A stretch of DNA of 64,000 bases, taken from the NCBI RefSeq assembly GCF_001610955.1, contig NZ_CP014335.1, positions 1,281,001 to 1,345,000 on the forward strand, in the 5' to 3' direction. Below the pieces are notes generated by a model. That model was not told the DNA's origin and did not search any database. It saw only the letters and a list, made by a program, of their open reading frames with translations. The position numbers and the translations under genes were made by a program. Source of the stretch: Geobacillus thermoleovorans (lineage in GTDB: Bacteria > Bacillota > Bacilli > Bacillales > Anoxybacillaceae). Shown here piece by piece: positions 21,438-39,317 of the stretch (position 1 is the stretch's first letter; each line of letters opens with the position of its first letter).

Positions 21438-21510
21438 GGCCCCGTAGCTCAGTGGATAGAGCGTCGGTTTCCTAAACCGTGCGTCGGAGGTTCGAATCCT
21501 CTCGGGGCCG
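21438..21510 (+). tRNA. tRNA-Arg(CCU)
   Basis: 73-nt cloverleaf. The acceptor GGCCCCG pairs with CGGGGCC and a G discriminator. The D-arm is AGCTCAGTGGATAGAGC. The anticodon loop TTCCTAA gives CCU. The T-arm is GGTTCGAATCC. The 3' CCA is not encoded. It reads arginine AGG codons. A tRNA gene at the left edge of an accessory region is a common integration target. Confidence 0.95.
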
Positions 21511-21559
21511 TTCCAACGATCCGACTAGTTCGGATTAAAATTCTTAAACCCCTTGATAC

Positions 21560-22424: not shown

Positions 22425-22440
22425 CTTATTTTAGCTAAAC

Positions 22441-22464
22441 AAAAGGCGGATCTCTCCGCCTTTT
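22441..22464 (+). terminator. Terminator after the immunity/hypothetical genes
   Basis: AAAAGGCGGA (22441-22450) pairs perfectly with TCCGCCTTTT (22455-22464) across a four-base loop. Confidence 0.9.
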
Positions 22465-22488
22465 CGCACGAGATAGCAACTCAAAAGA

Positions 22489-22509
22489 ATTTTGCACAAA
22501 TTTTGCACA
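22489..22509. repeat. 21-bp direct repeat, right copy
   Basis: Contains ATTTTGCACAAATTTTGCAC, matching the copy at 21623-21643 with a single A/G difference. See that entry. Confidence 0.55.
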
Positions 22510-22601
22510 ACACAAAAGAATGTGTCGCTCAAACATTGAAATATCAATACTTTTCGGTAAATGGTTATTATCCTCTCGGGCCGCTAGTGAAAACCCTTGC
22601 G

Positions 22602-22801
22602 ATGCGGGGGTTTTTTCTTTATCTCCCGCCATATTCGCCGCAGCTCACCCCGATCGAGCGTTTGCGGAAATGGCGGAAAGATCCTGTCATGGCGAATGTA
22701 TTTCATAAAGAACGAAACGATATCATGCAAGCCTTTGATCGATGGCTTATATCCATGAACATCCGGAGAAGGTGCTGCAGCGCTTGGGGGATGGGGCGTG
22801 A
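22602..22801 (+). pseudogene. IS630-family transposase fragment, C-terminal and frameshifted
   Basis: FLYLPPYSPQLTPIERLRKW is the signature around the last catalytic Glu of IS630/Tc1-mariner DDE transposases. It is followed by KDPVMANVFHKERNDIMQAF. The frame then shifts by one near 22745, after which YIHEHPEKVLQRLGDGA completes the expected C-terminus at TGA 22801. The N-terminal two thirds are absent. A decayed insertion-sequence scar. Confidence 0.8.
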
Positions 22802-22863
22802 TGAGAAGTCCACTCTTCATGTTGCATGTATATACATAAAGAACGCCTGCTCGTGACGAAAGA

Positions 22864-22900
22864 AGCGGCTCTCTCACTAGTTGAGAGAGCCGCTTTTTTA
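22864..22900 (+). terminator. Strong terminator before the McrB-like gene
   Basis: AAGCGGCTCTCTCA pairs with TGAGAGAGCCGCTT, followed by TTTT. It insulates the defense genes from upstream transcription. Confidence 0.9.
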
Positions 22901-22959
22901 GTAGAATAGAAGAAAAATAGAAACGAAGAATAACATTTCTATACGAAGGAGTTATTCCC

Positions 22960-24639: not shown

Positions 24640-27112
24640 CGACCGCGAGCTTGTCCATATCGAAACGAAACAGCTCACGCTCGTGATCAAAGGAAAGCCG
24701 TACCACGAACAATACGAAGGGCTTCAGCAGTACCGCCGCCTCGATTTCCACGAGACGATGGAGTTTTTCGTCAGCGGTGAAGACATCTTGGACGTCAAAC
24801 TGTTTGACGTGGACGCTGGCGAGCTTGTCGACTGGTCGGGCGGCCACCGCCCGATTTTCTTTGAAAACGGCGTCTATCAGCTGCTCGTCGTTCCGAAAAC
24901 CGAGCGGGTGCTTACCTTTTATCATGAATCGCCAGCCATTCGGAACGCCGTCAGCCGCGTTGACATCGGCGGACAGGCGGTGTTGATGGGCAACCTCTAT
25001 TTCCCGAATGAAGTCGGGCTGTCGACGTTGGAAATCCGCGACGGCAGCCGTTCCATTTTGGACGTGACGATCGAAATTTTTCCGACGAAGCTGACATATA
25101 AACAAGACTACCAAATCCTTCTTGACGAAGTCAGCGAAGAAATTTACAACTTGGCGTTTCACTTCATCAAGCGCACGTACCAGCGGGCGAGAGCGAAGCG
25201 GGACGACGCACCGTCCCGAAGCGAGTTTTTCCGGCTCATGGAAGCGCATATCAGTGACTTTTTGCATGCCATTCGGCATATTGAGCGGCAGCCGCACCAT
25301 CAACTGTCGACCGTCCATGTGAGAGTGCGCGGCGACCAGCTCGGCCGTTTGGATGCGGCAGGAAGAAACGATTTGCGCAAGCGGCCGCAAGTGTTCCGTG
25401 ACGTCAAGCGCGGCATCAACATCGGAAGTCGAACCGTCATGCCGCGATCGGGGCTCAAAGCGAAAAAAGAACTGACGTACGACACGCTCGAAAACCGGTT
25501 CGTCAAATGGATGATGACGCGCCTTGTCGAGAAGCTGCGCGATTTGTTCGAACACGTGCAAGGGAAGCAAAAGCGATACGAAACGGAACCGGATCCGGGT
25601 TTGCTTGAGCGCATCCAATCGATGATCCGCGCGCTCGAAACTCGGCTTCGTCACTCTTTTTGGCGGCCGATCGGGCGGCTTGACCGCTCCGTCATGAGCC
25701 TCGTCCTGCAAATGGCGCCCGGGTACCGCGACGCCTATCAGCTGTTTCTCATCATCACCCGCGGCCTCGCCTTGCAAGGGAAGCTGTACCGAATGTCCGT
25801 AAAAGACGTCGCCACGTTGTACGAGTATTGGACGTTTTTGAAGCTCGGGCAGCTCCTCGGGAAAAAATACAAACTCATCAGCCAAAATGTCATCCAAGTG
25901 AACCGCTTAGGGCTGTTCGTCAATCTCGAAAAAAACCGCTCCGCCAAGCGGGTGTACGAACACCCATACACCGGAGAGCGAATCACGCTGACCTATCAGC
26001 CGTACGAAGGAAGGCTGCCAACCGTCCCGCAAATGCCTGACACGGTTTTGGCGATTGAAAAGAAGGGAAAAGACTATACATTCAACTACATTTTCGACGC
26101 CAAATACCGCCTGGACTTCGCCGTTTCGGGCAGCTCATACGAAAAACGGTACGGAATGCCGGGCCCGATGGAAGACGACATCAACACGATGCACCGCTAC
26201 CGCGATTCGCTTGTCGCCCGCCGCGGCGGCCCATACGAGCGCACCGCCTTTGGCGCCTACGTGCTGTTCCCGTGGCATGACGAAGACAGCTACCAAGCGC
26301 ACCCGCTGTACAAAAGCATCAACGACGTCAACATCGGCGGCCTGCCGTTTTTGCCGAACGCCACCCGCCTGGTCGAGCAGTTCATCGAGCGGCTGATTGA
26401 AAAGAATCCCGAAGAACTGCAAAACGAAGGCATCCTGCCGCAAGGGATCATCGAAGAATGGCGGTCGGGGTTCGATGAGCATGTGCTTGTCGGCATGGTG
26501 CCAAGCGCGCGGCATTACGAAGCCTACCGGAAACACCGCTTCTACCATATCCCGGTCAAGCAGCTGAAAAAAGGCTGGCAAGACGCGCGCTACATCGCCC
26601 TTTACCCGAAGCGGGGAGCCGCCCCGCAAAACGGGGTCACGTGCTTTGGCAAAATCGCCGCTGTGAACATCGTCAAACGATCGGCCATCACCGAGCTGCC
26701 GAAACGAAGCGATGAGGAATACGTTCGCTTCGAAGTCGAAAGCTGGAACTTTCTCCAAAACGTCATCCGTCCCGTCGGCTACGGCATCGCCGTCTATGCG
26801 ATGACGACGTTCAACATGCTCAAACAGGCGAAAGAACTGCCGGAACTGTTCATGAAATCAAGCGAGGAAATCGCCCTTTGGCGCATCCTGCGGCGGCTGT
26901 CCGACCGCATCCGCTTCGACCTTGACGCCCGCTACTTGGATCAGGCGTCCAAGATCACCGCGTACCGCATCAAAAACGTGTCCATCCGCCTAGGAGACGG
27001 CCTGCTCATGATCACGAACGGCACGAAGCACAAAACGATCCCCGCCGAACTGCTCCGCAAGCAGCCATCGGCCGTGTTTCGCGAAGTGGTGGGGATGATG
27101 GGGGGAGAGTGA
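24608..27112 (+). CDS. DUF2357-type PD-(D/E)XK nuclease, McrC-like partner
   Basis: 834-aa protein overlapping the McrB-like gene by 32 nt. The N-terminal half is beta-rich (ETMEFFVSGEDILDVKLFD) and fits DUF2357. The C-terminal half carries a PD-(D/E)XK core near residues 485-510 (TFNYIFDAKYRLDF, with D and K of the catalytic triad). It continues with LPNATRLVEQFIERLIEKNP and an ending KNVSIRLGDGLLMITNG. Proteins of this family replace McrC as effector nuclease in many McrB-like systems. It is much longer than McrC (about 350 aa). Co-expression with the AAA motor indicates a two-gene restriction system. Confidence 0.82.
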   Translation: MASLRSGSGRDDRELVHIETKQLTLVIKGKPYHEQYEGLQQYRRLDFHETMEFFVSGEDILDVKLFDVDAGELVDWSGGHRPIFFENGVYQLLVVPKTERVLTFYHESPAIRNAVSRVDIGGQAVLMGNLYFPNEVGLSTLEIRDGSRSILDVTIEIFPTKLTYKQDYQILLDEVSEEIYNLAFHFIKRTYQRARAKRDDAPSRSEFFRLMEAHISDFLHAIRHIERQPHHQLSTVHVRVRGDQLGRLDAAGRNDLRKRPQVFRDVKRGINIGSRTVMPRSGLKAKKELTYDTLENRFVKWMMTRLVEKLRDLFEHVQGKQKRYETEPDPGLLERIQSMIRALETRLRHSFWRPIGRLDRSVMSLVLQMAPGYRDAYQLFLIITRGLALQGKLYRMSVKDVATLYEYWTFLKLGQLLGKKYKLISQNVIQVNRLGLFVNLEKNRSAKRVYEHPYTGERITLTYQPYEGRLPTVPQMPDTVLAIEKKGKDYTFNYIFDAKYRLDFAVSGSSYEKRYGMPGPMEDDINTMHRYRDSLVARRGGPYERTAFGAYVLFPWHDEDSYQAHPLYKSINDVNIGGLPFLPNATRLVEQFIERLIEKNPEELQNEGILPQGIIEEWRSGFDEHVLVGMVPSARHYEAYRKHRFYHIPVKQLKKGWQDARYIALYPKRGAAPQNGVTCFGKIAAVNIVKRSAITELPKRSDEEYVRFEVESWNFLQNVIRPVGYGIAVYAMTTFNMLKQAKELPELFMKSSEEIALWRILRRLSDRIRFDLDARYLDQASKITAYRIKNVSIRLGDGLLMITNGTKHKTIPAELLRKQPSAVFREVVGMMGGE

Positions 27113-27151
27113 GCTACGGCGATGTCCGAAGAAGACCTCGCCCCTTGCTCC

Positions 27152-27176
27152 ATTATCAAACCGCATCGTTGATAAT
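27152..27176. promoter_or_regulatory. Inverted repeat between the McrBC-like and type III-like operons
   Basis: ATTATCAA (27152-27159) and TTGATAAT (27169-27176) are perfect 8-bp arms. No T-run follows. It could be an operator for the downstream operon or a weak terminator of the upstream one. Confidence 0.35.
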
Positions 27177-27263
27177 TCATCTATGTCCGACAAATTTCAA
27201 CAACATTTCTGGGGACGGTTTAGTAAAATAAAGTGAAGAAAAGGAATAAGGAGCAATCGGGAC

Positions 27264-30200
27264 ATGAAGGCAAAAGGGATGATTGACAATAGACAAAACG
27301 GCCTAGTCGGCGATGTGTTGAAAGCGCATATTACAAAAGGCAGCAAACTATCGATTGCGGCGGCCCATTTTACGTTATATGCGTTTGCACAATTGAAAAA
27401 AGAGCTGGCGCAAATCGATGAATTCCGTTTTATTTTCACAGAGCCTGCCTTTGTGCGCGGTGATCGTTCATTCAATGAATGGATGAAGAAAAACGAAGCG
27501 GCGCTGTATGGAGTAGAAGAAGAACGAAAATACAAAATTGAACTTAACCAAGCATACATAGCAAGGGAACTGGCGAAATGGCTGAAACAGAAAGCAAGGG
27601 TGAAATCGGTCGTCAATCAGCGCATTCAAGGCAGCATATATCATGTGCGAAATGAGGACGGGTCACAAATCGGCTTGATCGGCGGGGCGCCGTTTTCCAG
27701 TCCGGGGCTCGGCTACAGCAACTCCTCCCATTTTTATTTTACCCATATGATGAATGATCGAGATTCCAGCGCCCAGCTGCTTTGCCAGTTTGAGGCGATT
27801 TGGCAAGATGAACAGGCGCTGCAAGATGTGAAAGATGAAATTTTGCGGCGCTTGGAAGTCATGTATCAAGAGCATCCGCCAGAGTTTATTTACTTTGTCA
27901 CACTTTATTACCTATTCAAAGATTTTTTAAAAGAAGCGACAAACTACGAAACATTGCAGACGAGAACTGGTTTCCAAAATACGGTGATTTGGAACAAACT
28001 TTATGACTTTCAGCGCGATGGGGTCCTTGGGGCTATCAATAAAATTGAAACGTACGGGGGCTGCATCATCGCCGACAGTGTCGGGCTTGGAAAAACGTTC
28101 GAAGCGTTGGCGGTGATCAAATATTACGAATTGCGCAACCATCGCGTTCTCGTATTGGCGCCGAAAAAATTGCGGGAAAACTGGGCCATCTACCGTTTAA
28201 ATGATAAGCGAAACATTTTAGCCGCAGACCGCTTTTCGTATGACTTGCTCAACCATACCGACTTATCGCGTGAGCGCGGCTACAGCGGCGATATTAACCT
28301 AGAGCATGTCAACTGGGGAAACTATGACCTTGTTGTCATTGACGAATCGCATAACTTTCGCAACAACGATCCGCGCAATGACCGGGTGACGAGATATTCC
28401 CGCTTGATGAACGATATTATTAAAGCGGGGGTGAAAACGAAGGTATTGATGCTTTCCGCCACCCCCGTCAACAACAAGCTTGATGACTTGAAAAATCAAA
28501 TTGCCTTTATTACAGAAGGAAATGACAAGGCATTGGCGGAAACGGCAAACATCAAAAGCATCAGCCAGACGATTCGGCGCGCCCAGTCGCAGTTTAACAA
28601 ATGGAGCCAACTTCCCGAAGAAGAGCGGACGACCGAGCGGTTGTTGGATATGCTCGATTGGGATTATTTTGCTTTGCTTGATTCGCTGACAATCGCCCGT
28701 TCGCGCCGCCATATCGAAAAATATTACAATGTGGATGCCATCGGGCCGTTTCCGACACGCCTAAAGCCGATCAATCTAAAAGAAAAAATTGACGCCAAAG
28801 GCGAGTTTCCGCCGCTTGAGAAAATCAATAACGACATCTTGCGGCTTCGGATGGCGGTCTATTCGCCGATGCAATACATTTTGCCGAACAAAAAAGCGGA
28901 CTATAGCGAAAAATACGATACAAAGGTCGCAAACGGCAGAGTGTTTAAGCAAACGGACCGGGAGCACAATCTCGTTTATTTAATGAAATCCAATTTGCTG
29001 AAGCGGCTAGAGAGCAGTGTCCATTCGTTTTCTTTAACATTGCAAAACATCATCCAACAAATCGAAGAACATATTAAGAAAATCGACCGTTACGATGGAA
29101 GTTCCGGGACAATTGGAGAGATGGACGGGATCGACGCGGAAGATCCGGAATTGGAAGAGGCGTTGATTGGCTCGAAAGTCAAAATCTTTTTGAAAGACAT
29201 GGATTTGATCCGTTGGAAACAAGATTTGTTATACGACCGGGAGATTTTGCTGAGGCTGCTTCACCAGGCGCGGAACGTAACGCCGGATCGCGATCAGAAG
29301 CTGTTGGCGTTGAAACGATTGATCGAACAGAAAATCAAGCACCCGATTAACGATCAGAACAAAAAACTGCTCATTTTCACAGCTTTTGCCGATACGGCGA
29401 AATACTTATACGAGAATTTGCATCAATGGGTGCAAAACCAATTTGGATTGCACTGTGCGGTCGTGACGGGTACCGATCAGCCGAAAACAACATTGAAGAT
29501 GAAGAAAGTCGATTTCAATCATGTGTTGATGAACTTTTCGCCCGTCTCGAAAGAGCGGGATAAAGTGATGCCGGAAATGAAAGACGAAATCGACATCCTC
29601 ATCGCCACGGACTGTATTTCCGAAGGACAGAACTTGCAAGACTGCGATTATCTTGTCAACTATGACATCCATTGGAACCCGGTCCGCATCATCCAGCGGT
29701 TCGGCCGCATCGACCGGATCGGCAGCAAAAACAATCAGATCCAGCTCGTAAACTTCTGGCCATCAATCGAGCTTGACGAATACATTCAGCTCGTCAATCG
29801 GGTCAAAGGCCGAATGACGATCCTGGATATTTCATCGACCGGGGAAGAAAACGTCATTGCCGACAACAGCAACGAAATGAATGACTTGGAATACCGCCGA
29901 AAACAGCTGGAAAAATTGCAAAATGAAGTCATCGACTTAGAGGACATTTCCGGAAATATCTCGCTGACGGATTTTACACTCGACGACTTCCGAATGGACT
30001 TGTTGAATTTCATGAAGGAACATAAGGAAGAGCTCGAGCGGGCGCCGTTTGGACTGTTCAGCATTACCGCCAATCAAAATGAAAAACTGAAAGATGAAAT
30101 TCAGCCAGGCGTCATTTTCTGCCTAAAACAAACGGCACCAACGGCATCTGCACATGAACAAAACGCGCTTCATCCGTATTACTTAGTGTACGTGCGGGAA

Positions 30201-30509
30201 GACGGCACGGTGTTGTATAACCATGTCCACGTAAAGAAAGTGTTGGATTTATACCGCTCGCTTTGCAGCGGCAAAAAAGACGTTGAAAGGGGCTTGTACA
30301 AGGCGTTTTATCAAGAGACGAAAAACGGAAAAGACATGGGGCAATACAAGGCGCTGCTGGAAAAAGCGGTGGAAGAGATCGTCGGCAAGATGGACCAGCA
30401 ATTGATGCTCAACATCTTCAGCCTTGGAAACTTGGACGCCTTCGTGACGAACGCCAACACGAGTTTGCAAGACTTTGAGATCGTTTCGTATTTGATCATT
30501 GAAGGGTGA
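27264..30509 (+). CDS. SNF2-type helicase with N-terminal PLD-like domain
   Basis: 1081 aa. Residues 1-170 resemble a phospholipase-D-like fold (KLSIAAAHFTLYAFAQLKKE), but the HxK-like site reads YHVRNEDG, so nuclease activity is doubtful. The SF2 motor has Walker A ADSVGLGKTFEAL near 269, DESH near 357, MLSATPVNN near 394, and helicase C motifs ATDCISEGQNLQDC near 780 with QRFGRIDRIGS. Start ATG 27264 follows AAGGAGCAATCGGGAC. Its stop overlaps the next gene. It heads a four-gene operon with DUF4391, Mod and Res genes and probably moves along or remodels DNA in that defense system. Confidence 0.85.
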   Translation: MKAKGMIDNRQNGLVGDVLKAHITKGSKLSIAAAHFTLYAFAQLKKELAQIDEFRFIFTEPAFVRGDRSFNEWMKKNEAALYGVEEERKYKIELNQAYIARELAKWLKQKARVKSVVNQRIQGSIYHVRNEDGSQIGLIGGAPFSSPGLGYSNSSHFYFTHMMNDRDSSAQLLCQFEAIWQDEQALQDVKDEILRRLEVMYQEHPPEFIYFVTLYYLFKDFLKEATNYETLQTRTGFQNTVIWNKLYDFQRDGVLGAINKIETYGGCIIADSVGLGKTFEALAVIKYYELRNHRVLVLAPKKLRENWAIYRLNDKRNILAADRFSYDLLNHTDLSRERGYSGDINLEHVNWGNYDLVVIDESHNFRNNDPRNDRVTRYSRLMNDIIKAGVKTKVLMLSATPVNNKLDDLKNQIAFITEGNDKALAETANIKSISQTIRRAQSQFNKWSQLPEEERTTERLLDMLDWDYFALLDSLTIARSRRHIEKYYNVDAIGPFPTRLKPINLKEKIDAKGEFPPLEKINNDILRLRMAVYSPMQYILPNKKADYSEKYDTKVANGRVFKQTDREHNLVYLMKSNLLKRLESSVHSFSLTLQNIIQQIEEHIKKIDRYDGSSGTIGEMDGIDAEDPELEEALIGSKVKIFLKDMDLIRWKQDLLYDREILLRLLHQARNVTPDRDQKLLALKRLIEQKIKHPINDQNKKLLIFTAFADTAKYLYENLHQWVQNQFGLHCAVVTGTDQPKTTLKMKKVDFNHVLMNFSPVSKERDKVMPEMKDEIDILIATDCISEGQNLQDCDYLVNYDIHWNPVRIIQRFGRIDRIGSKNNQIQLVNFWPSIELDEYIQLVNRVKGRMTILDISSTGEENVIADNSNEMNDLEYRRKQLEKLQNEVIDLEDISGNISLTDFTLDDFRMDLLNFMKEHKEELERAPFGLFSITANQNEKLKDEIQPGVIFCLKQTAPTASAHEQNALHPYYLVYVREDGTVLYNHVHVKKVLDLYRSLCSGKKDVERGLYKAFYQETKNGKDMGQYKALLEKAVEEIVGKMDQQLMLNIFSLGNLDAFVTNANTSLQDFEIVSYLIIEG

Positions 30510-30514
30510 GTGTC

Positions 30515-31339
30515 ATGGCCGCATCCGTGTTTTATGCTACAATAGGGCTGGACGAGCGTGTCCGTCCGTTGCATAAAAAGCTCGATAAAAAAATGTTTTA
30601 CGACTATGCGGACTTGACGAGAAAAGAAAAGGACTATATGACGAAAGACATCGAGCGGATCGAGCTGACGTATTTGTTGTCTCCGGGCGTCATCAACATT
30701 CAGCCGTTCGTCAACGACGACTACCATTACGAAGGGGTTATGTTTATCACCGTTCGTCTGCGCCCGGAATCGAAGGATGCGCACGTTTCCGTGATCGGGG
30801 AGATCATCCAAAAAACAGTGCCCAACCCAACCGTTATCGTGTTTGAAAAAGAAGGAAACGTTCGAATGGGGACATGCCGCAAGCGGCTGAACAAAAACGA
30901 CCGGACCAAAACCGTGGCCGAAGAATGGGCGTATACGCCGTGGTTTTCTCCCGATCATGCTGACGAGACAGTCAAGCAGTTTCTTCGCGCCGTCCATATG
31001 ACGAGGCTTTCGTTCGCCAACTTTTTTCGGTTTTATCAAGACATCCATCTGGCGGTGCAGGCGTTCCAGCACGCCAAAGCGATCGGCGCCTTTTACATCG
31101 CCGCTGATGAACAATCAAAACAGCTCGTCGCGCAAATCGAACAGGCGGAAGTCGAAATCGCAAAATGGAAAAACGAAATCAAAAAAGAAACGCAGTTTAA
31201 TCGAAAAGTCGAATACCATATGAAAATTCAACAGCTAACGAAGCAAATCGAACAATGGAAGCAACAATTGCACGGAAAGGAGCAGCATGATGGAAAAACT
31301 GGACGGAAGATCATTGGATCTCATCAAAACGAACATTGA
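30515..31339 (+). CDS. DUF4391 family protein
   Basis: 274 aa from ATG 30515 (MAASVFYATIGLDERV), with GAAGGG eight nt upstream; an alternative GTG at 30506 overlaps the helicase stop. The sequence has a KLDKKMFYDYADLTRKEKD region and ends in a coiled coil (QIEQAEVEIAKWKNEIKKE, about residues 205-260). Proteins of this kind accompany helicase and type III-like Mod genes. The biochemical role is unknown. The C-terminal 53 nt overlap the mod gene, an unusually long overlap that ties its translation to Mod. Confidence 0.8.
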   Translation: MAASVFYATIGLDERVRPLHKKLDKKMFYDYADLTRKEKDYMTKDIERIELTYLLSPGVINIQPFVNDDYHYEGVMFITVRLRPESKDAHVSVIGEIIQKTVPNPTVIVFEKEGNVRMGTCRKRLNKNDRTKTVAEEWAYTPWFSPDHADETVKQFLRAVHMTRLSFANFFRFYQDIHLAVQAFQHAKAIGAFYIAADEQSKQLVAQIEQAEVEIAKWKNEIKKETQFNRKVEYHMKIQQLTKQIEQWKQQLHGKEQHDGKTGRKIIGSHQNEH

Positions 31340-33173
31340 AGCGTTAAAGCAGCTATTCCCAGAAGTTGTCACGGAGGGAAAAATCGATTTTGACAAACTG
31401 AAGCTTGTTCTCGGCGAAGAGATTGAAACGCGCAACGAAAAGTACGAATTCACCTGGCACGGCAAAACACAAGCGATGAAACTTGCGCAAACGCCGTCCA
31501 CTGGCACCTTGCGGCCGGACAAAGCATCAAGCAAAAATTGGGAGACAACGGAGAACTTGTATATTGAAGGCGACAACTTGGAAGTGCTGAAATTGCTGCA
31601 AAAATCGTATTTTGGCAAAATCAAAATGATCTACATCGACCCGCCGTACAATACGGGGAAAGACTTTGTGTACAAAGACGATTTTCGCGACAATATCAAA
31701 AATTATAAAGAAATCACACAGCAAACGACCAAAGCGAATACGGAGACAAACGGACGGTATCATACCGATTGGTTGAATATGATGTACCCCCGGTTGAAGT
31801 TGGCAAGGAATTTGTTGAGGGAGGATGGGGTTATATTTATAAGTATTGATGATAATGAGGTTGCCAACTTAAGAAAAATTTGTGATGAAATATTTGGGGA
31901 ACAAAATTTTATTACTCAAATCACGGTTTTATGTAATCCAAAAGGTCGTTCCCAAGATAAATATTTTGCAACTAATCACGAATACATACTAGTATACTCG
32001 AAAAATGATCTAGAGCAAGGTTATTTTTCCATTCAAAAAGACGAAGAACAAATAGTTAATGACTACCCGGAACAAGATGAGCAAGGGAGATACAGGCTGA
32101 TTGAATTAAGAAACACTCACAGGGAATTCGGTAAGCATAATCGTAAAAATCTCTTTTATCCTATTTATGTAAATCCAGTTACATCAGAAATATCCCTTGA
32201 ATATAAGGACAGCTATAATATAAAGGTTGAACCTATCTGGGATGACGGGTACGAGGGATGTTGGACGTGGGATAAGTCAAAAGCTCTAGAAGATATTCAC
32301 TTATTGGTTGCTAGAAAAACTAACAAGGGTAACTGGAAAATTTATAGAAAAAACTATGCTAATGGCGCGAAAAAAATGTTAAAAACAATTTTTTTAGATA
32401 AGTTATTCTATACGGAAAAGGGACAGGCAGTATTTTCTTCCTTGTTCTCAACAAAATCTAAGTTGTTTCCATCACCTAAATCTGTAGATTTAATTGCTCA
32501 ATTGCTTCTCACAGCTACTCAGAATGATGATATAGTTCTTGATTTCTTCTCCGGCTCCGCTACAACTGCCCATGCAGTCATGCAGTTAAACGCGGAGGAT
32601 GGCGGCAATCGCAAGTTTATTATGGTCCAGTTGCCGGAAAAAACGGATGAAACGTCGGATGCGTATAAAGCGGGATATAAAAACATTTGCGAAATCGGCA
32701 AGGAGCGCATCCGTCGGGCGGGGGAGAAAATCGTTCAAGAAACCGGAAAGACCGATTTAGATATCGGTTTTAAAGTGTTTAAGCTCGATTCTTCCAATAT
32801 TAAAGAATGGGATCCGGACTTTGACAACCTCGAACAAACGCTTTTCGATTTGCAGAATAACATTAAGGAAGATCGGACGAAAGAAGACTTGTTGTATGAG
32901 ATTTTGCTGAAAATCGGGTTGCCGTTGACGGTGCCGATTGAGGAAATCGACTGCCGCGGCAAAACGATTTACAACGTCGCCTACGGTTCTGTGTTGGTCT
33001 GCCTAGAAGATGAGATTGACCTTGACCTTGTTCAGGAGATGTTGAACTACAGGTCCGAGCATATGCCGCCGAAAGTCATTTTTAAAGAATCCGGCTTTAT
33101 GAGCGACGCGGTGAAAACGAACGCCTTGCAAACGTTGAAAAAGCACGGCATCACGGATGTTAGGAGTGTATAA
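31287..33173 (+). CDS. mod: Type III restriction-modification methyltransferase subunit Mod
   Basis: 628-aa beta-class adenine-N6 methyltransferase. Motif IV MIYIDPPYNTGKDF lies near residue 116 and the SAM-binding motif I LDFFSGSATTAHA near 417, with the target recognition domain between them. Mod sets sequence specificity for the Res partner. The start is ATG 31287 or ATG 31290 (better spaced from AAAGGAG). The stretch 31.82-32.56 kb, which encodes the recognition domain, is visibly more AT-rich than both flanks, suggesting replacement by recombination. res follows after three nt. Confidence 0.93.
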   Translation: MMEKLDGRSLDLIKTNIEALKQLFPEVVTEGKIDFDKLKLVLGEEIETRNEKYEFTWHGKTQAMKLAQTPSTGTLRPDKASSKNWETTENLYIEGDNLEVLKLLQKSYFGKIKMIYIDPPYNTGKDFVYKDDFRDNIKNYKEITQQTTKANTETNGRYHTDWLNMMYPRLKLARNLLREDGVIFISIDDNEVANLRKICDEIFGEQNFITQITVLCNPKGRSQDKYFATNHEYILVYSKNDLEQGYFSIQKDEEQIVNDYPEQDEQGRYRLIELRNTHREFGKHNRKNLFYPIYVNPVTSEISLEYKDSYNIKVEPIWDDGYEGCWTWDKSKALEDIHLLVARKTNKGNWKIYRKNYANGAKKMLKTIFLDKLFYTEKGQAVFSSLFSTKSKLFPSPKSVDLIAQLLLTATQNDDIVLDFFSGSATTAHAVMQLNAEDGGNRKFIMVQLPEKTDETSDAYKAGYKNICEIGKERIRRAGEKIVQETGKTDLDIGFKVFKLDSSNIKEWDPDFDNLEQTLFDLQNNIKEDRTKEDLLYEILLKIGLPLTVPIEEIDCRGKTIYNVAYGSVLVCLEDEIDLDLVQEMLNYRSEHMPPKVIFKESGFMSDAVKTNALQTLKKHGITDVRSV

Positions 33174-33176
33174 CCG

Positions 33177-36131
33177 ATGAAGCTGAAGTTTAACGCGGAT
33201 TTGGACTACCAACGGCGCGCGATTGAGTCGGTGGTGCATATTTTCAAAGGACAGGAACTGAACCAGTCGAACTTCACCGTTTCGTACGGCCCTGAGGCGG
33301 GAATGCTTCAAACGGACTTGGGCGTCGGGAATCGGCTTGACCTGACGCCTGAGGAAATTTTAAAAAACGTCCAAGACATCCAGGTGAGAAACGGCCTGCC
33401 GCGCAGCGAGCGGCTCGATGGCATGCATTTTACGATTGAAATGGAGACGGGGACGGGGAAGACGTACGTCTATTTGCGGACGATTTATGAGCTCCATAAG
33501 CATTATGGATTTACGAAATTTGTCATCGTCGTTCCGTCCGTGGCGATTCGCGAAGGAGTGTACAAGTCGCTGCAAATCACTCGCGACCATTTCGATGAAC
33601 TGTACGACCGCACTCCGGCGGAATATTTTATTTACGATTCGCAGAAGCTTGATCAAGTCCGCAATTTTGCGACGGCGACAACGATTCAAATCATGATCAT
33701 CAATATCGATGCGTTCCGCAAAAGCTTTGAAGATCCGGAAAAAGAAGATAAGGCGAACGTCATTCATCGGCCGAACGACCGTCTAAACGGGTATCGCCCG
33801 ATTGAATTTATCCAACAGACGAATCCGATCGTGATCATCGATGAGCCGCAAAGCGTCGATACGACGCCGAAATCGAAGGAAGCGATCGCGTCGCTCAACC
33901 CGCTTTGTACGCTGCGCTACTCGGCGACGCATGTGGACAAGTATCATATGGTGTACCGCCTTGATGCGGTTGACGCCTATAATCAAAAGCTGGTGAAAAA
34001 AATTGAAGTCATGTCTGTCCGATCCGAACCGTCGTTCAATGTGCCGTACATCAAGCTCATTGAGGTGAAAGAGCGAAAAGCGAAAATTGAGCTCGATGTC
34101 GAATCGCGCGGGAAGATCAAACGGATGACGAAAACGGTCAAATACGGCGATGATTTGTATGACATTTCCGGAGAGCGCGAACTGTACCGCGGATATATCG
34201 TCGAGCAAATCGATTGGACGGAAGGAAATGAAGCGGTTGAAATCAATGGCTACCGACTCGGTGTGGGCGACGCAATCGGGGATGTCGATGACGATGCCAT
34301 CAAGCGGTATCAAATCCGCAAAACGATTGAAGAGCATTTAAATAAAGAATTGTGGCTCCGCCCGCGTGGGATTAAAGTGCTCAGCTTGTTCTTTATCGAC
34401 AAGGTCGCTCATTACCGCGACTATGATCAAGAAGGCCAGCCGGTAAAAGGAAAATATGCGATCATGTTTGAGGAAGAGTATCGGAATTTAATGCAAAAGC
34501 CGAAATACCGTCCGCTCTGGGACGATCCGGGCATTGACCAAGACATCGAGAAGGTGCATAATGGCTATTTTGCTCAAGATAAAAAAGGACGGTTGAAAGA
34601 TACGAAAGGGAATACAGAGGCGGATACAGATGTATACAATCTCATTATGAGGGACAAAGAACGGCTGCTCAGCCTCGATGAGCCGCTCCGCTTCATTTTC
34701 TCTCATTCCGCGCTCCGTGAAGGATGGGACAACCCGAACGTCTTCCAAATTTGCACGTTGAAAGACTCGTCAGGCACGTATGTATCGAGGCGCCAGGAAA
34801 TCGGGCGTGGTTTGCGTTTGGCTGTCAACCAAAACGGGGAACGGGTGCATGACGATCATATCAACATATTGACGGTTATGGCGAATGAGTCATATGAAGA
34901 ATTTGTTGCCACTTTGCAAAGAGAGATTGAAGAAGATACGGGCATCCAGTTCGGCAAAATCGAAAAACATGTATTTGCCAAACTCGTTTATGTGGACGAG
35001 GCGACGGAAGAGCCGGTGCAAATGGGCTATGATTTATCATTGAAGCTGTATGAGGAATTAAAACAAAACGGCTATATTGACAAACAGAGCAAAGCAACGG
35101 AAAAACTCAAACGAGCCATTGAAAACTATGATCTCCATCTGAGCGATGAATTCCAGCCGTGGCTATTGTCCATCGTGAAAGAGATCAAACGCCATTTGCA
35201 AGCATTGCCGATCAAAGACGGGACGAAAAAGAAAAAAGTCCATGTCAATATGGCGGTCCTTAATCAAGAGGAGTTCACGCGGCTGTGGGATAAAATCAAA
35301 TATAAAACCGTTTATTCCGTTGATTTTGACAGCGAACAGCTCATTGACTTATGCATTGCCGCCATTCAAGAAATGAGGCCGATTGAGAAAATCCGCATTG
35401 TCAGCCGAAAAGGACGGGTGGAAATTGATCATGTGACAGGCGTACAGGCGCAAACGATCAGCGAAAAAGTGGAAGATTACGTGAGTTTGCACCATACGCT
35501 CCCGGATCTCATCACCGAGCTGCAAAACCGGACGAATTTAACGCGGAAGACGATCGTGCGCATTTTGACCGGCTGCAAGCGGCTCGATGATTTCAAAAAC
35601 AATCCGCAAAAGTTTATTGAAGAAGTGGCGAACATCATCCAGCGCCAAATGAGGCTGCTGCTGAAAGATGGCGTGAAATATTACAAAATTGGTGATGATG
35701 CGTATTACGCGGTCGAGCTGTTCCAAAATGAAGAGCTGCTCGCCTATTTGAACGACAACGCCATCCCGAGCGAAAAATCGCCGTTTGACCATATCCTTTA
35801 CGATTCTGAGGTGGAAGAGCGGTTCGCCAAACGTTTTGAACACGATGAAAACGTAAAAGTGTACGTCAAACTGCCGAGTTGGTTTAAAATTGACACCCCA
35901 ATCGGCTCCTACAATCCCGACTGGGCGCTTGTCATCGAAAAGGATGGTGAGGAAAAACTGTACTTCGTCCTCGAGACGAAAGGACAGGAATGGGAGGGCG
36001 AACTGCGTCCCGGTGAAGCAGCGAAAATTGCCTTCGCCCGCAAACACTTCCAAGCCATCGGAACGGACGTGGAATTCATCGGACCGGAAAATGATGTCGA
36101 GCGGTTTATGCTGCAAGTCTTAAGCCGTTAA
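33177..36131 (+). CDS. res: Type III restriction-modification endonuclease subunit Res
   Basis: 984-aa SF2 helicase-nuclease. Walker A METGTGKTYVYL near 90, motif II IIDEPQSVD near 219, RYSATH near 249, helicase C motifs SALREGWDNPNVFQIC near 515 and RRQEIGRGLRL near 538. The C-terminal PD-(D/E)XK nuclease has NPDWALVIEK near 912 and FVLETKG near 930. The DEPQ box and this layout are those of EcoP-type Res. It works with Mod to cut unmodified DNA after translocation. Start ATG 33177 is three nt after mod; the ribosome site AGGAG lies within the end of mod. Confidence 0.94.
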   Translation: MKLKFNADLDYQRRAIESVVHIFKGQELNQSNFTVSYGPEAGMLQTDLGVGNRLDLTPEEILKNVQDIQVRNGLPRSERLDGMHFTIEMETGTGKTYVYLRTIYELHKHYGFTKFVIVVPSVAIREGVYKSLQITRDHFDELYDRTPAEYFIYDSQKLDQVRNFATATTIQIMIINIDAFRKSFEDPEKEDKANVIHRPNDRLNGYRPIEFIQQTNPIVIIDEPQSVDTTPKSKEAIASLNPLCTLRYSATHVDKYHMVYRLDAVDAYNQKLVKKIEVMSVRSEPSFNVPYIKLIEVKERKAKIELDVESRGKIKRMTKTVKYGDDLYDISGERELYRGYIVEQIDWTEGNEAVEINGYRLGVGDAIGDVDDDAIKRYQIRKTIEEHLNKELWLRPRGIKVLSLFFIDKVAHYRDYDQEGQPVKGKYAIMFEEEYRNLMQKPKYRPLWDDPGIDQDIEKVHNGYFAQDKKGRLKDTKGNTEADTDVYNLIMRDKERLLSLDEPLRFIFSHSALREGWDNPNVFQICTLKDSSGTYVSRRQEIGRGLRLAVNQNGERVHDDHINILTVMANESYEEFVATLQREIEEDTGIQFGKIEKHVFAKLVYVDEATEEPVQMGYDLSLKLYEELKQNGYIDKQSKATEKLKRAIENYDLHLSDEFQPWLLSIVKEIKRHLQALPIKDGTKKKKVHVNMAVLNQEEFTRLWDKIKYKTVYSVDFDSEQLIDLCIAAIQEMRPIEKIRIVSRKGRVEIDHVTGVQAQTISEKVEDYVSLHHTLPDLITELQNRTNLTRKTIVRILTGCKRLDDFKNNPQKFIEEVANIIQRQMRLLLKDGVKYYKIGDDAYYAVELFQNEELLAYLNDNAIPSEKSPFDHILYDSEVEERFAKRFEHDENVKVYVKLPSWFKIDTPIGSYNPDWALVIEKDGEEKLYFVLETKGQEWEGELRPGEAAKIAFARKHFQAIGTDVEFIGPENDVERFMLQVLSR

Positions 36132-36138
36132 AGGTGGG

Positions 36139-36173
36139 GACAAAGCAGAGGCCGATTGGGCTTCTGTTTTGTC
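36139..36173 (+). terminator. Imperfect terminator after res
   Basis: GACAAAGCAGAGG pairs with CTTCTGTTTTGTC with wobble and one mismatch; the T-run is within the 3' arm. Probable end of the helicase-DUF4391-mod-res transcript. Confidence 0.5.
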
Positions 36174-36309
36174 TCAGCATCACATTACAGATCAGCGAGC
36201 GAGAAAGCCCGCTCCTTGAGGGGTGGGATGAAAGCGAGCCGTTTTCTTCATATTATTGAATGATGATGAAAAAAACGGTATCATGTAATCGTCGCAAGGA
36301 GGTGAATCC

Positions 36310-37365
36310 ATGCCGACCATCACACTAAGGCTGGAGCTGCACAACCCAACGAAAGTCAAACAGGAAATGTATGAACGGATGACAGAAGTGAACACAGAGT
36401 TTGCGAATTGGCTGTTGGATCATCCAGAACTGAATCAAGTGACGAGTAAAATTTTTAAAGCGTTTTCGTCACAACGATTTCCTTCCGCCGTCGTGAATCA
36501 AACGATTCGAGAAGTGAAGTCCCAAAAGAAAAACCAGAAAACAAAGAGGTTTCGAACATTATGGTGTTGCTTTAACAATCAAAACGTGAAGGTGGAAAAG
36601 AAAGGAGAGTTCTACACCGTTTCATTCCCAACATTAGAGAAGCGAATCGGTGTGCCGGTGGTCACGCGTCCCTATCAAGAAGCATGGCTGAATCGGCTGC
36701 TTAACGGAACCGCCAAACAAGGGGCAGCCAAGCTCTACAAAAAGAGAAAGAAATGGTACTTGGCTGTTGCGATCACAGTTGAAGTCCAACAACGGGAAGA
36801 AACGAAGGCAATGGGCGTTGATTTGGGACTTCGTTATATCGCCGTTGCCAGCGTGGGAACGAAATCACTGTTTTTCAAAGGGAACCAATGCGCCTTTGTA
36901 CGCCGACGATATGCGGCTTTGCGAAGGAGATTAGGAAAAGCTAAGAAGCTCCATATGATTCGCAAAATCGGCCGTAAAGAGTCCCGCTGGATGAAGGATC
37001 AAAATCACAAAATCAGCCGTCAAATCGTGAATTTTGCGCTCGCCAACGGTGTTGGCGTGATTCGGATGGAAGCGTTGACGGGGATTCGCAAGCGGGCAAA
37101 ATCGGCCAAAGAAGCGGGGCGAAGCCTTCATGCTTGGGCGTTTCATCAACTGCAAACGATGATCGCCTATAAAGCGGAAATGGCGGGCATTCGTGTTGAG
37201 TGGGTGAATCCAACCTACACAAGCCAAACGTGTAAATGTGGTTATCGAGAGAAAGCGAACCGAAACGGCATCCGCTTCCGATGCCAAAAGTGCGGATACA
37301 CCCTCCACGCCGACTTGAATGGCGCGATCAACATCGCCAAAGCGATTTCGGGCTTTGCCGTCTAA
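36310..37365 (+). CDS. tnpB: TnpB, RNA-guided nuclease of an IS605-type element
   Basis: 351 aa, intact. RuvC catalytic acidic residues are all present: D in MGVDLGLRYIAVAS near 171, E in VIRMEALTGI near 254, and D in LHADLNGAINIA near 336. A zinc ribbon is formed by TCKCGYREKANR and RCQKCGYTLH. The first knuckle is CxC here, as in a known Bacillaceae subgroup. N-terminal residues 1-60 fit the WED/REC start (TITLRLELHNPTKVKQEMY). GCAAGGAGGTGAATCC is an excellent ribosome site. TnpB uses the element's right-end RNA as guide to cut DNA next to a TAM and helps keep the element at its site. Confidence 0.93.
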   Translation: MPTITLRLELHNPTKVKQEMYERMTEVNTEFANWLLDHPELNQVTSKIFKAFSSQRFPSAVVNQTIREVKSQKKNQKTKRFRTLWCCFNNQNVKVEKKGEFYTVSFPTLEKRIGVPVVTRPYQEAWLNRLLNGTAKQGAAKLYKKRKKWYLAVAITVEVQQREETKAMGVDLGLRYIAVASVGTKSLFFKGNQCAFVRRRYAALRRRLGKAKKLHMIRKIGRKESRWMKDQNHKISRQIVNFALANGVGVIRMEALTGIRKRAKSAKEAGRSLHAWAFHQLQTMIAYKAEMAGIRVEWVNPTYTSQTCKCGYREKANRNGIRFRCQKCGYTLHADLNGAINIAKAISGFAV

Positions 37366-37515
37366 CTCACATTTCGCACCCTGAATAAAAATTCGAAATA
37401 AGCCTGATTTGATTGAATAAAAATTAATTATCTTACAATTTTTGTATAAAAAATTATTTTTATGCGAATATCCAGGTTGTTTTTTGTATATTATGCAAAG
37501 GTTGCGAAATATGAG
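37366..37515. other. AT-rich spacer between tnpB and the omega-RNA block
   Basis: About 150 bp of very AT-rich DNA without coding potential. TTGATT (37409-37414) and TACAAT (37434-37439) with a 19-nt spacer could form a weak promoter reading toward the right end. Most TnpB elements have the guide scaffold overlapping the tnpB 3' end, so this spacer is unusual. Confidence 0.4.
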
Positions 37516-37682
37516 GTCTAACCTAGCGCACTGGTCACAGGTGCGCCGCCCATTGGGGTACATCCTAACCCGATGGGATGGGGTGATGACACACCCCTGA
37601 ACTTGGGCGTTGTCCGAACCAGAAATGGATGAGGACGCAAACGACCCAAGAATCCCACGCCTTTAGGCGTGCGGAGTGTCAA
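37516..37682 (+). ncRNA. Probable omega-RNA (TnpB guide RNA scaffold), guide beginning about 37683
   Basis: GC-rich block able to form several hairpins: CCCATTGGGG, CCCGATGGGATGGGG, a GACGCAAACGACCC region pairing with upstream GGGCGTTGTC, and the terminal CACGCC-TTTA-GGCGTG. It ends in GGAGTGTCAA at the element border. By analogy with characterised TnpB systems, the next roughly 16-20 nt (AATCGACCCGG onward) would act as guide and equal the flanking DNA. No RNA data support this; the call rests on position and structure. Confidence 0.6.
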
Positions 37683-37851
37683 TAATCGACCCGGTTGAAT
37701 GCAAAATCTTTGAGACATCCAAGAGCACATTCCCGAGTAGCAACAGGGCGCTAGTGTATTGCACACTTAGAGAAATAGGAGTTGATAAAAAATGAGTTTC
37801 AAAGCGGAAGCGTTATGTGTTCTCATCGCTTCGCCATCGGTATAGAAAAGG

Positions 37852-37877
37852 GAGCGGCACCGCACCGCTCTTTTTGT
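37852..37877 (+). terminator. Terminator-like hairpin downstream of the TnpB element
   Basis: GAGCGG (37852-37857) pairs with CCGCTC, followed by TTTTTG. No intact gene ends just before it, so it may belong to a lost gene or end the omega-RNA transcript. Confidence 0.6.
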
Positions 37878-37980
37878 ATTTTTGATCGGTCGACAAAGTT
37901 CGACGGCAACGTTTTACAAAAGTTGATACAATCAAATCAACTGAATCTTTTTATCTATGACAAAGGGAGGGGTCACGGGA

Positions 37981-38082
37981 TGGCAACGATTCGTAAAGCA
38001 GATTACGGCAGCAAGCGCGCAGATGTATTGGATGGGAAAGATCATACGATCAAAATTGAACGAAATCGATTAAGCAGTTTGT
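37981..38082 (+). CDS. Possible 33- to 34-aa small protein
   Basis: ATG 37981 follows GGGAGGGG with good spacing and reads MATIRKADYGSKRADVLDGK and on to SSL before a TAA. The product is basic and has no membrane segment. An extended -10 (TGATACAAT, 37924-37932) lies about 50 nt upstream. The product is not recognised. It could be a small defense-associated gene or the start of a decayed gene. Confidence 0.35.
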
Positions 38083-38100
38083 AATAGACGGAGAACACCG

Positions 38101-38190
38101 ATGGGCGGGCTTATTCTATATGGTTTTTTCGTTTTTGCTCATCTTATAATGGTATTGCATATAGTGGGGAGCTATCTGCTCGTCTTTTAA
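38101..38190 (+). CDS. Possible 29-aa single-membrane-span peptide
   Basis: ATG 38101 follows GGAG eight nt upstream. The product is almost entirely hydrophobic (GGLILYGFFVFAHLIMVLHI, ending SYLLVF) and would form one membrane helix. It sits between the TnpB element and the Mrr-type gene. Tiny hydrophobic peptides of this sort can be toxins of type I modules, but no antisense RNA is evident. Chance cannot be excluded. Confidence 0.3.
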   Translation: MGGLILYGFFVFAHLIMVLHIVGSYLLVF

Positions 38191-38260
38191 GCGCCTGTTT
38201 TTAGAAAATGTTTGCTTCGCGAATGGAGCGATTTCTTTTTACAAAAAAGGGGGAAATCCA

Positions 38261-39247
38261 ATGGCAAAATGGTGGATGATCCGCGCGGGCGACCGCAATG
38301 AACTGATTCCGCTTTGGCTGGAAAAGGGCATCGCATCGATCGGCTGGGCGCGGTTAGGAAACCCAAGGCATTTTTCATCAAAGCAACAGCTTCAACAGAA
38401 GGCAGACGAAGTGTTTAACGAGGCCAAACCGAAATCAAGAAATAGCTGGGTTAATCAAGTGTGGCGTTTCAGCCATGAAATTAAAAAAGGCGATCGTGTG
38501 ATCACGTACTCTAAAGAAAGAAGAGAATACATTGTCGGAACGGTCACAGAGGAGCATGTGTACGATCCTGGCATCGGGCACCCGAATTATCCGAACATCA
38601 TTCGGGTCAACTGGGAAAACGCCCGGATCTCAAGAGATTCATTGCCGCAGGCGGCGAAAAACAGTTTAGGCTCTACCTTAACAGTTTTTCGGGTCGATGA
38701 GTGGGGGGATGAAATCGAACGACAATTGAGCAACCCGTCATTAGCTTCCGTCGATAAAACCATTGAACCGGAAGAGGACGAAATCGTCGAAGATCTTGTT
38801 GGAAAAGCGTTGATGATGATCCAGGACAAAGTGGACAAGCTTGATCCGTGGCAAATGCAAGATTTAGTAGCAGGCTTGCTTCGGGCTATGGGGTACAATG
38901 TGCAAGTCAGCCCGAAAGGCCCTGACGGTGGGGTGGATGTGTTGGCCTATAAGGATGCATTCGGTTTTGAAAAACCAATTATTAAAGTGCAAGTTAAGCA
39001 TCGCAAAAGTGCCGCTTCGGCTCCAGAAATCCAGCAGCTTCTCGGGGCCAACCCGATTGATGCCAATTGCCTGTTCGTCTCAACAGGCGGTTTTACTTCC
39101 CATGCAGAGGCAGTCGCCAAACATAATTCCGTTAAACTGATTGATTTGGAAGAACTGGTCAACTTGATTGTCCATTGGTACGAGAACATGCCAAATGATG
39201 CGAGAGCGCTGTTGCCGCTGCAGAAAATGTATGTGCCCGAATCTTGA
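38261..39247 (+). CDS. Mrr-type type IV restriction endonuclease with N-terminal PUA/EVE-like domain
   Basis: 328 aa. The N-terminal about 140 residues (WWMIRAGDRNELIPLWLEKG, GDRVITYSKERREYIVGTV) resemble PUA/EVE-like modules that read modified bases. The C-terminal Mrr_cat domain has the motif GPDGGVDVLAY near residue 224 and VQVKHR near 244, the D...(D/E)xK catalytic core, with an upstream helix WQMQDLVAGLLRAMGYNVQV. AAAAAAGGGGG precedes the ATG. It likely cuts DNA bearing foreign modifications. Last gene of the defense region; a terminator follows. Confidence 0.9.
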   Translation: MAKWWMIRAGDRNELIPLWLEKGIASIGWARLGNPRHFSSKQQLQQKADEVFNEAKPKSRNSWVNQVWRFSHEIKKGDRVITYSKERREYIVGTVTEEHVYDPGIGHPNYPNIIRVNWENARISRDSLPQAAKNSLGSTLTVFRVDEWGDEIERQLSNPSLASVDKTIEPEEDEIVEDLVGKALMMIQDKVDKLDPWQMQDLVAGLLRAMGYNVQVSPKGPDGGVDVLAYKDAFGFEKPIIKVQVKHRKSAASAPEIQQLLGANPIDANCLFVSTGGFTSHAEAVAKHNSVKLIDLEELVNLIVHWYENMPNDARALLPLQKMYVPES

Positions 39248-39254
39248 CAAACAT

Positions 39255-39298
39255 AAGGCTTCATCCCTGCTTGGCAAGTGCGAGAGGATGAAGCCTTT
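39255..39298. terminator. Bidirectional terminator between Mrr-type gene and acetamidase gene
   Basis: AAGGCTTCATCC (39255-39266) pairs perfectly with GGATGAAGCCTT (39286-39297). T and A runs on the two sides suit both convergent transcripts. Confidence 0.85.
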
Positions 39299-39317
39299 AG
39301 TGATGATCGACATGTTT

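Follow-up and report, generated by a model that had tools for sequence, protein, structure and literature searches.

A conserved four-gene type III restriction-modification locus with an SNF2-type helicase and a DUF4391 protein in Geobacillus thermoleovorans

Type III restriction-modification (R-M) enzymes are textbook two-subunit machines. In Geobacillus thermoleovorans (assembly GCF_001610955.1, contig NZ_CP014335.1, positions 1,281,001 to 1,345,000 of the forward strand; this whole stretch of 64,000 nucleotides is called the window, and positions refer to it), the predicted type III methyltransferase (MOD) and endonuclease (RES) are encoded downstream of an SNF2-type helicase (HEL) and a protein of family PF14335 (DUF4391). 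The four open reading frames (ORFs) occupy 27264-36131 (+), in the order HEL, DUF4391, MOD, RES, as confirmed here for a first-pass annotation of the letters, which had taken their tight coupling as a sign of one machine. Are the first two genes part of the restriction system, and what would they do in it? A plain 'type III R-M' annotation would miss half of a four-gene system. A different SNF2 protein beside type III genes is already published (Eco86II; PMC8259958); the locus described here is a conserved four-gene type III version with its own motor and DUF4391.

The neighbourhood of DUF4391 was surveyed in loci (L numbers) collected around PF14335 genes of the phylum and family genomes, in 17 loci from viral contigs, in 8 of 10 plasmid matches and in the 80 nearest of 261 named-genome relatives; the viral-contig and named-genome loci are those nearest to the query, not a random draw. 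Flanks were annotated with profiles of the four window proteins, and HEL, MOD and RES were counted anywhere in the flank on the proper side and strand, given at least 1.5 kb upstream for HEL, at least 1.5 kb downstream for MOD and at least 9 kb downstream for RES. The counts exclude six duplicate loci, the DUF4391 fragments L054 and L087, and the window itself. HEL was found upstream on the same strand at 131 of 134 DUF4391 loci (exceptions L086, L119 and L168), MOD downstream at 129 of 130 (the exception, L119, is a fragment) and RES downstream at 87 of 90 (exceptions L119, L132 and L160). An even draw of the phylum contained PF14335 in 34 of 398 genomes, and the family in 13 of 41. Four-gene loci span Methanomethylovorans (L107), a Woesearchaeote (L170), Planctomycetota (L185), Omnitrophota (L190), Verrucomicrobiota (L155) and Prevotella (L158). 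Gene order and strand are therefore conserved over many bacterial phyla and archaea, and the arrangement is not due to chance. As bacteria and archaea that are only remotely related keep these four genes together and in one order, HEL and DUF4391 probably do real work in the system, and the pair is very likely functional. The constant linkage of DUF4391 with its neighbours, and of the first two genes in particular, on which the first-pass annotation had made its proposal depend, is thus found, and it founds the idea of one machine better than the gene overlaps do.

Searches from the other genes gave the same picture in part. The PADLOC model C3a139 (HKD+Snf2) had 36 matches in the phylum draw, 30 of which adjoin DUF4391; the other six are three proteins unscored by the HEL profile, a truncated HEL (L212) and two HEL genes at contig ends, one a 5' piece (L221) and one followed by another ORF (L208). 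The ORF after HEL in L208 (3449-4264, at the contig end) is no DUF4391, and we take its start to resemble DUF3800. C3a139 (PDLC01075) was rejected as a HEL marker: it gives 581 bits to an unrelated protein (L209 7629-11507) that the HEL profile scores at -10 bits, and since it scores both kinds of protein its matches are unsafe as annotation. The 58 RES genes of the phylum draw (61 rows; at most two candidates were scored per genome, and at least one RES, G134:C1 in L085, was missed) comprise 29 beside DUF4391, 11 without it, and 18 that are cut by a contig end, fragmentary or unfetched. Three plasmid HEL loci were opened, of 30 listed among 102 HEL records, and all three have DUF4391 annotated directly after HEL; one has its methyltransferase in two pieces and a transposase gene ahead of it (L233), and another has no RES annotated after MOD within the stretch (L235). 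A Providencia HEL gene has matching DNA in 88 of 5426 complete Escherichia coli genomes, and in all seven E. coli loci opened HEL and DUF4391 are followed by methyltransferase genes and by a type III endonuclease gene, the methyltransferase of L231 being split by an insertion sequence.

The four proteins and their co-inheritance

Type III enzymes typically have an asymmetric site, methylate one strand and cleave about 25 bp away. MOD and RES have the sequence features of the class: MOD is a beta-class amino-methyltransferase whose DPPY motif is invariant in 119 full-length sequences, and RES combines a superfamily 2 (SF2) ATPase with a PD-(D/E)xK nuclease, whose catalytic residues PDW...ETK are conserved at 98% in 98 full-length RES. 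Judged by their sequences, both are orthodox type III enzymes.

HEL had been described as a helicase joined to a phospholipase D (PLD) domain, and this description holds for the motor and for the fold, not for a nuclease. The Walker A, DESHNF and QRFGR..DR motifs are invariant in 120 full-length HEL, and 293 columns are conserved at 90% or more. Residues 1-239 were modelled by AlphaFold2 with a pLDDT of 83.7, and Foldseek placed the model closest to SauUSI (7clg, E 2.9e-6), the NgoAVII R protein (4rct, E 1e-5) and Zucchini (1e-4). SauUSI and the NgoAVII R protein are PLD-type nucleases. No PLD domain was called in HEL by the Pfam scan, so that this part is defined by the mixed PADLOC model and the predicted fold. 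The canonical HxK place is filled in a single HEL of 120 (H-G-K, L059) and reads Q122-G-S in the window; 6 of 120 have an HxK anywhere within residues 113-151. The window protein has H127-V-R five residues past the canonical place, near the end of the strand, and a shifted motif there is unlikely. With the canonical motif lost in 119 of 120 sequences, a role as a PLD nuclease was rejected; HEL is very probably no such enzyme.

DUF4391 was modelled with confidence (residues 1-256, pLDDT 95.8, pTM 0.89) as an alpha/beta domain followed by a coiled-coil hairpin. Fold searches gave no convincing match to a solved structure beyond the coiled coil (best Foldseek E value 0.012; VIA-align rows mostly covering residues 199-256 only), and no PADLOC or NCBIfam model matched at E 0.001. 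It is the fastest-evolving subunit, with 6 columns at 90% conservation or more, compared with 293 in HEL. Its variation is unlinked to that of the target-recognition region of MOD: the distance correlation between the two is 0.066, and in the E. coli cassettes L226-L228 DUF4391 remains 97-99% identical although the MOD recognition domain has been swapped. It is therefore not a specificity subunit, a role that had been considered. DUF4391 of a further cassette (L225) is 76-77% identical to the others, the divergence being mostly central; between L225 (13690-14556) and L226 (13690-14544) identity in the centre drops to 47-75%, with HEL at 96%, as local recombination or diversifying selection would produce. 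At L184 (9156-9959) and L171 (1763-2578) another ORF, weakly similar to DUF4391, lies between HEL and DUF4391, a possible duplication. In the literature searched the family is named in a single paper, as a table entry, and an analogous extra helicase of unknown function was published in 2021 (PMC8259958); to call the system incompletely described, as the earlier annotation did, was fair.

Core distances between the subunits were compared over 88 complete loci, RES being taken without its nuclease part and species relatedness not being controlled. They correlate closely: HEL motor with RES (r=0.93), HEL motor with DUF4391 (0.93), RES with DUF4391 (0.91), MOD core with RES (0.91), and MOD core with HEL motor (0.86) and with DUF4391 (0.84). 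Distances of the MOD recognition region show next to no correlation with those of any other part (r 0.04-0.14). Similarly, four E. coli cassettes are 96-99% identical in HEL and 96-100% in RES, and 2-40% in most of the MOD recognition region. The cassette measures about 9 kb, and these near-identical E. coli versions, which differ mainly in the recognition domain, make the system directly testable.

Pairs without the helper and the role of HEL-DUF4391

We favour, at a probability of about one half, the reading that the four genes form one helicase-assisted type III R-M variant in which HEL-DUF4391 is a helper pair on the restriction side. MOD would mark self DNA and read the target, and RES would be the ATP-driven endonuclease. 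HEL would act as an SNF2-type motor on double-stranded DNA, its PLD domain, with the nuclease site lost, probably serving binding or dimerisation; DUF4391 would be a non-enzymatic adaptor that couples HEL to the MOD-RES complex. Most likely the pair would license or power RES cleavage on unmarked DNA, perhaps by translocating, by clearing bound proteins or by joining two enzyme complexes. What is observed is the linkage of the four genes, the parallel divergence of their cores, the kept motifs of the motor, MOD and RES, and the lost canonical PLD motif; a physical complex of the four proteins, DUF4391 as the adaptor and translocation as the task of the helper are what we infer.

MOD-RES pairs that lack the helper bear on this reading. 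In the phylum draw, 11 of 40 determinable RES genes have no DUF4391. On a RES tree of 75 rows (55 four-gene, 11 without DUF4391, 9 unassigned; root assumed), these pairs need seven state changes; nine of the 11 are scattered among four-gene members, and L206 and L207 form the outgroup. Repeated losses would be expected to give such a scatter. One pair (L194) keeps a 90-aa HEL remnant and has a RES nearly identical to that of L059. Two others are not truly helper-less: L197 (G285) encodes an unbroken SNF2 protein that shares 44% identity over 977 aa with that of E. coli NCTC86, a large ORF lying between its gene and mod, and L198 (G111) has a split copy of the same type. The presence of an NCTC86-type SNF2 in two members of the window RES family points to repeated recruitment of a motor.

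Within this RES family, the nuclease domain of RES is absent in 4 of 9 helper-less or remnant pairs, compared with 5 of 106 that have HEL-DUF4391 or an Eco86II-type SNF2 (Fisher p=0.0019). The nine are seven DUF4391-less pairs and two loci of the survey set with helper remnants (L086, L087); an earlier count that left out the latter two (4/7 versus 5/107, p=0.0006) is replaced by this one. Counted by intact helper, the domain is absent in 5 of 16 versus 2 of 91 (p=0.0007). The four nuclease-less pairs (L202, L203, L204, L215) belong to three lineages, L202 and L203 being sisters. Absence of the helper thus goes with loss of the RES nuclease; the numbers are small, and we regard the association as suggestive, not as proof. 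In these four pairs MOD is kept and RES stops before the nuclease domain, so that they are possible methylation-only type III pairs; L202 and L204 adjoin apparent housekeeping genes.

Other results weigh against a helper on the restriction side. Eight of nine DUF4391-bearing loci in which HEL is broken or absent still reach the RES nuclease domain; so do 5 of the 9 pairs with no helper or a remnant of one, and RES persists in L206 and L207, which belong to the distant outgroup and have no helper. Conversely, RES is truncated despite an intact helper in L057 and L110, and L132 has HEL, DUF4391 and MOD with no RES within 10 kb. In gut clostridia L184 and L187, HEL-DUF4391 is close to that of relatives and MOD-RES is not, so that the two halves are exchangeable. 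A tighter correlation of HEL-RES than of MOD-RES (0.94 versus 0.85 with the recognition region included) was dropped, as it shrank to a non-significant difference once that region was omitted (0.022, interval -0.004 to 0.047, species relatedness uncontrolled). Finally, mass spectrometry found no peptides of the extra Eco86II helicase in a partly purified fraction that retained partial cutting activity (PMC8259958), an argument against a strict need for such helicases in cleavage in vitro.

Several of these results would suit HEL-DUF4391 as a separate second-line defence module, which travels with the type III pair and acts alone if restriction is evaded, for example by sensing DNA ends or phage proteins. 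The junction between HEL and DUF4391 is nearly always tight (127 of 138 loci), whereas that between DUF4391 and MOD is open to foreign genes (more than 400 nt in 55 of 135). The exchanged halves in L184 and L187, the cutting Eco86II fraction without detected helicase (PMC8259958) and the RES nuclease kept in 8 of 9 loci with HEL broken or absent agree with this arrangement. However, HEL, its canonical nuclease motif lost, could probably damage DNA only with a partner, MOD adjoins 129 of 130 DUF4391 genes, and loss of the RES nuclease accompanies absence of the helper. We consider a separate module unlikely, though it is the most probable of the rivals.

A pair that serves modification or regulation, assisting MOD after replication or silencing RES until the host is marked, is a good deal less probable. 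The MOD core distances do correlate with those of the HEL motor and DUF4391, and methylation helpers exist, since MOD requires RES for methylation in two other m4C type III systems (PMC8259958). On the other hand, methylation by mod alone, in the absence of the extra helicase, was nearly complete in Eco86II and BspHIV (PMC8259958), and the four pairs without helper and RES nuclease have kept MOD.

Slightly less probable again is a sensory role, in which DUF4391 would detect phage counter-defence or some phage component and switch the system to an abortive response. Its fast evolution, the variability of its centre between two E. coli cassettes whose HEL proteins are 96% identical, and the TIR, SIR2-HerA, AbiL-like and AlbA_2 genes that adjoin it in other genomes would all fit. 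Nevertheless, Pfam, PADLOC and NCBIfam matched none of the four core proteins to a toxin-like family, fast evolution is equally expected of an adaptor or of recombination, and the adjoining genes are optional. The abortive activity proposed in the first-pass annotation thus finds no direct support in the core proteins, abortive-type genes being cargo in other genomes.

An ordinary two-gene system with unrelated neighbours is highly improbable: standard type III models are satisfied by MOD and RES on their own, and DUF4391-less pairs exist, but order and strand are conserved across phyla and archaea, and 9 of the 11 such pairs are scattered inside the four-gene family, one with a HEL remnant (L194) and two with another SNF2.

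Operon layout, cargo and surroundings

Coordinates are collected in Table 1. In the window, DUF4391 and MOD overlap by 53 nt and MOD and RES are separated by 3 nt. The 53-nt overlap is not conserved: among 11 relatives of the window family only L045 has the 277-aa overlapping form, and in the other ten DUF4391 has 256 aa and ends 13-15 nt ahead of mod. HEL and DUF4391 lie within 50 nt of each other, overlaps included, in 127 of 138 loci. The conserved coupling in the operon is therefore the HEL/DUF4391 junction, and the 53-nt overlap is a local quirk, which drops out as evidence for one machine.

Table 1. Positions of the four genes, their parts and their neighbours in the window
Feature	Position	Strand or place	Basis
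HEL, SNF2-type SF2 helicase/ATPase with N-terminal PLD-fold domain	27264..30509	+	1081 aa; Pfam SNF2-rel_dom, Helicase_C; PADLOC C3a139 444 bits (mixed model)
HEL residues 1-239, predicted PLD fold without canonical HxK (pseudo-PLD)	27264..27980	+	AlphaFold2, Foldseek, motif alignment
HEL Walker A ADSVGLGKT	28071..28097	+	identical in 120/120 full-length HEL
HEL DESHNF	28341-28358	+	identical in 120/120 full-length HEL
HEL stop / DUF4391 start, 4-nt overlap GTGA	30506..30509	+	ORF coordinates
DUF4391 protein	30506..31339	+	277 aa, GTG start; PF14335 169.5 bits (cut-off 29.9)
DUF4391 C-terminal coiled-coil hairpin, residues 202-255	31109..31270	+	DSSP of model; E228, Q230 conserved
MOD, type III beta-class DNA methyltransferase	31287..33173	+	628 aa; PF01555 (N6_N4_Mtase); PADLOC MTase_III 719.9 bits; DPPY
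MOD target-recognition region, about residues 206-389, approximate boundaries	31902..32453	+	E. coli cassette differences; distance correlations
RES, type III restriction ATPase-endonuclease	33177..36131	+	984 aa; PADLOC REase_III 1132.1 bits; Pfam ResIII, RE_endonuc
RES PD-(D/E)xK endonuclease domain, residues 866-967, PDW...ETK	35772..36077	+	PF19778 127.8 bits
McrB-like (MrcB_N, AAA_5) and McrC-like (DUF2357-PDDEXK_7) pair, 32-nt overlap	22960-27112	directly upstream of HEL	Pfam, PADLOC
TnpB (guided_TnpB)	36310-37365	downstream of RES	Pfam, PADLOC
Mrr-type endonuclease (PADLOC PDC-S02)	38261-39247	downstream of RES	Pfam, PADLOC

Both inner junctions are hot spots for diverse same-strand genes: DUF4391 and MOD are more than 400 nt apart in 55 of 135 loci, and MOD and RES in 35 of 114, and gaps of more than 300 nt hold 106 same-strand ORFs of at least 140 aa, in 62 loci. 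The clusters, whose families were named by Pfam and PADLOC for representatives (two partly overlapping sets of 10 proteins), include RhuM (14 loci, at the MOD-RES junction only), AlbA_2 (8), DUF1016/YhcG (5) and TIR (4 loci); SIR2 and HerA occur as pairs in L063 and L082, and GmrSD_N, AbiL-like and PrrC-like proteins were also found. A pairing of RhuM with type III restriction, mod or res had no match in the literature searched. The DUF4391-MOD slot of E. coli holds a gene for an ATP-binding-domain protein in L231 and a 126-nt gene so annotated in L229. The window cassette carries no cargo.

A larger claim can be built on the helicase-assisted reading: HEL, as a motor with a dead PLD domain, and a new-fold adaptor, DUF4391, would be the obligatory helper of a widespread type III class, whose mechanism would have changed from two-site sliding to motor-driven; loss of the helper would lead to decay of the RES nuclease and methylation-only survival. 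Recruitment of a helper would have happened on two or more occasions, giving HEL-DUF4391 in one case and the Eco86II-type SNF2 in another, and both inner junctions would be standard docking sites for other defence genes. We advance this only tentatively, and as doubtful in its entirety.

The window cassette is flanked by the McrB/McrC-like pair on its left and by TnpB and the Mrr-type endonuclease on its right, and thus lies in a defence island. The same McrB/McrC-like pair occurs near L046, L047, L050 and L078, and an McrC gene near an Acinetobacter plasmid cassette (L234). McrBC was rejected as a part of the system, a window-type McrB or McrC being present in the fetched flank of only 6 of 143 loci; so was a small upstream helix-turn-helix gene, whose two largest clusters comprise 13 and 7 of 115 loci. 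Phase variation was also discarded, as no tandem repeat occurs in 27264-36131 and the sole array within 22000-40000 is at 22488-22510. Promoter and terminator scans gave fewer sites than the shuffled means. Elsewhere in the window lie an S-adenosylmethionine (SAM) riboswitch (4466-4570) and a tRNA-Arg (cct) gene (21437-21511).

Comparison with known systems

SauUSI and the NgoAVII R protein are the nearest solved folds to the HEL N-terminus, which differs in having no canonical HxK. DISARM models fit poorly: DrmD models matched HEL only in part (129.8 bits) and DrmA weakly (81.3), and among the PADLOC matches listed no DrmA or DrmB, as DISARM would have, was found in the other seven proteins of 22960-39247. 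The PbeABCD / CxC-ABC-ATPase systems, as presented in passages of PMC10853773, have an HKD-SF2 helicase beside a rapidly evolving small protein, some with a DNA methylase; their core in that account is an ABC ATPase with a DndE relative, and the four genes of the window include neither. The BREX-related Type-2 BR, in the part of PMC12839542 that describes it, has a core of an HKD-fold-SNF2 fusion, a methyltransferase, a small lineage-specific DUF3780 protein and a DUF499 ATPase, with HKD as effector nuclease. Compared with this description, the window HEL has lost the HKD motif, RES is present and there is DUF4391 instead of DUF3780; a Pfam scan found neither DUF499 nor DUF3780 among the eight proteins of 22960-39247. 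The main-text passages of a 2025 review of host-dependent R-M hold no mention of SNF2, 'additional helicase' or Eco86II (PMC12707154).

Classical type III systems (EcoP15I, EcoP1I) share with the window a beta-class MOD with DPPY and a RES with SF2 and PD-(D/E)xK domains. They consist of two genes only (PMC8259958) and, unlike the window system, have no second motor and no DUF4391.

The closest counterpart in design is the type described by Murray et al. in 2021. Eco86II (E. coli NCTC86) and BspHIV have one more gene, for a helicase-like ATPase, 5' of mod and separated from it in BspHIV by about 140 bp of non-coding DNA; more than 500 genomes have close homologues of this helicase next to type III genes, and its function was unknown there (PMC8259958). 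The NCTC86 locus L232 (11030-20447) has an SNF2 protein of 963 aa, a methyltransferase of 1040 aa and a helicase of 1126 aa in a row, near nan and fim genes; the assignment to Eco86II is ours, as that name is not in the record. Like the window, it has type III mod-res genes and an extra helicase-like ATPase gene 5' of mod. Unlike the window, it has no DUF4391 and no PLD part, and its RES is unmatched by the window RES profile. Its extra SNF2 helicase matches HEL over the motor only (117.7 bits), and as the match begins at residue 56 there is no room for a PLD domain; a fused DUF4391 at its C-terminus was also rejected (hhalign probability 0.25%, E 0.25). In the Eco86II type this SNF2 stands directly 5' of mod, whereas in the window DUF4391 separates HEL from mod. 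By sequence comparison, the window system is analogous to the Eco86II architecture and separate from it.

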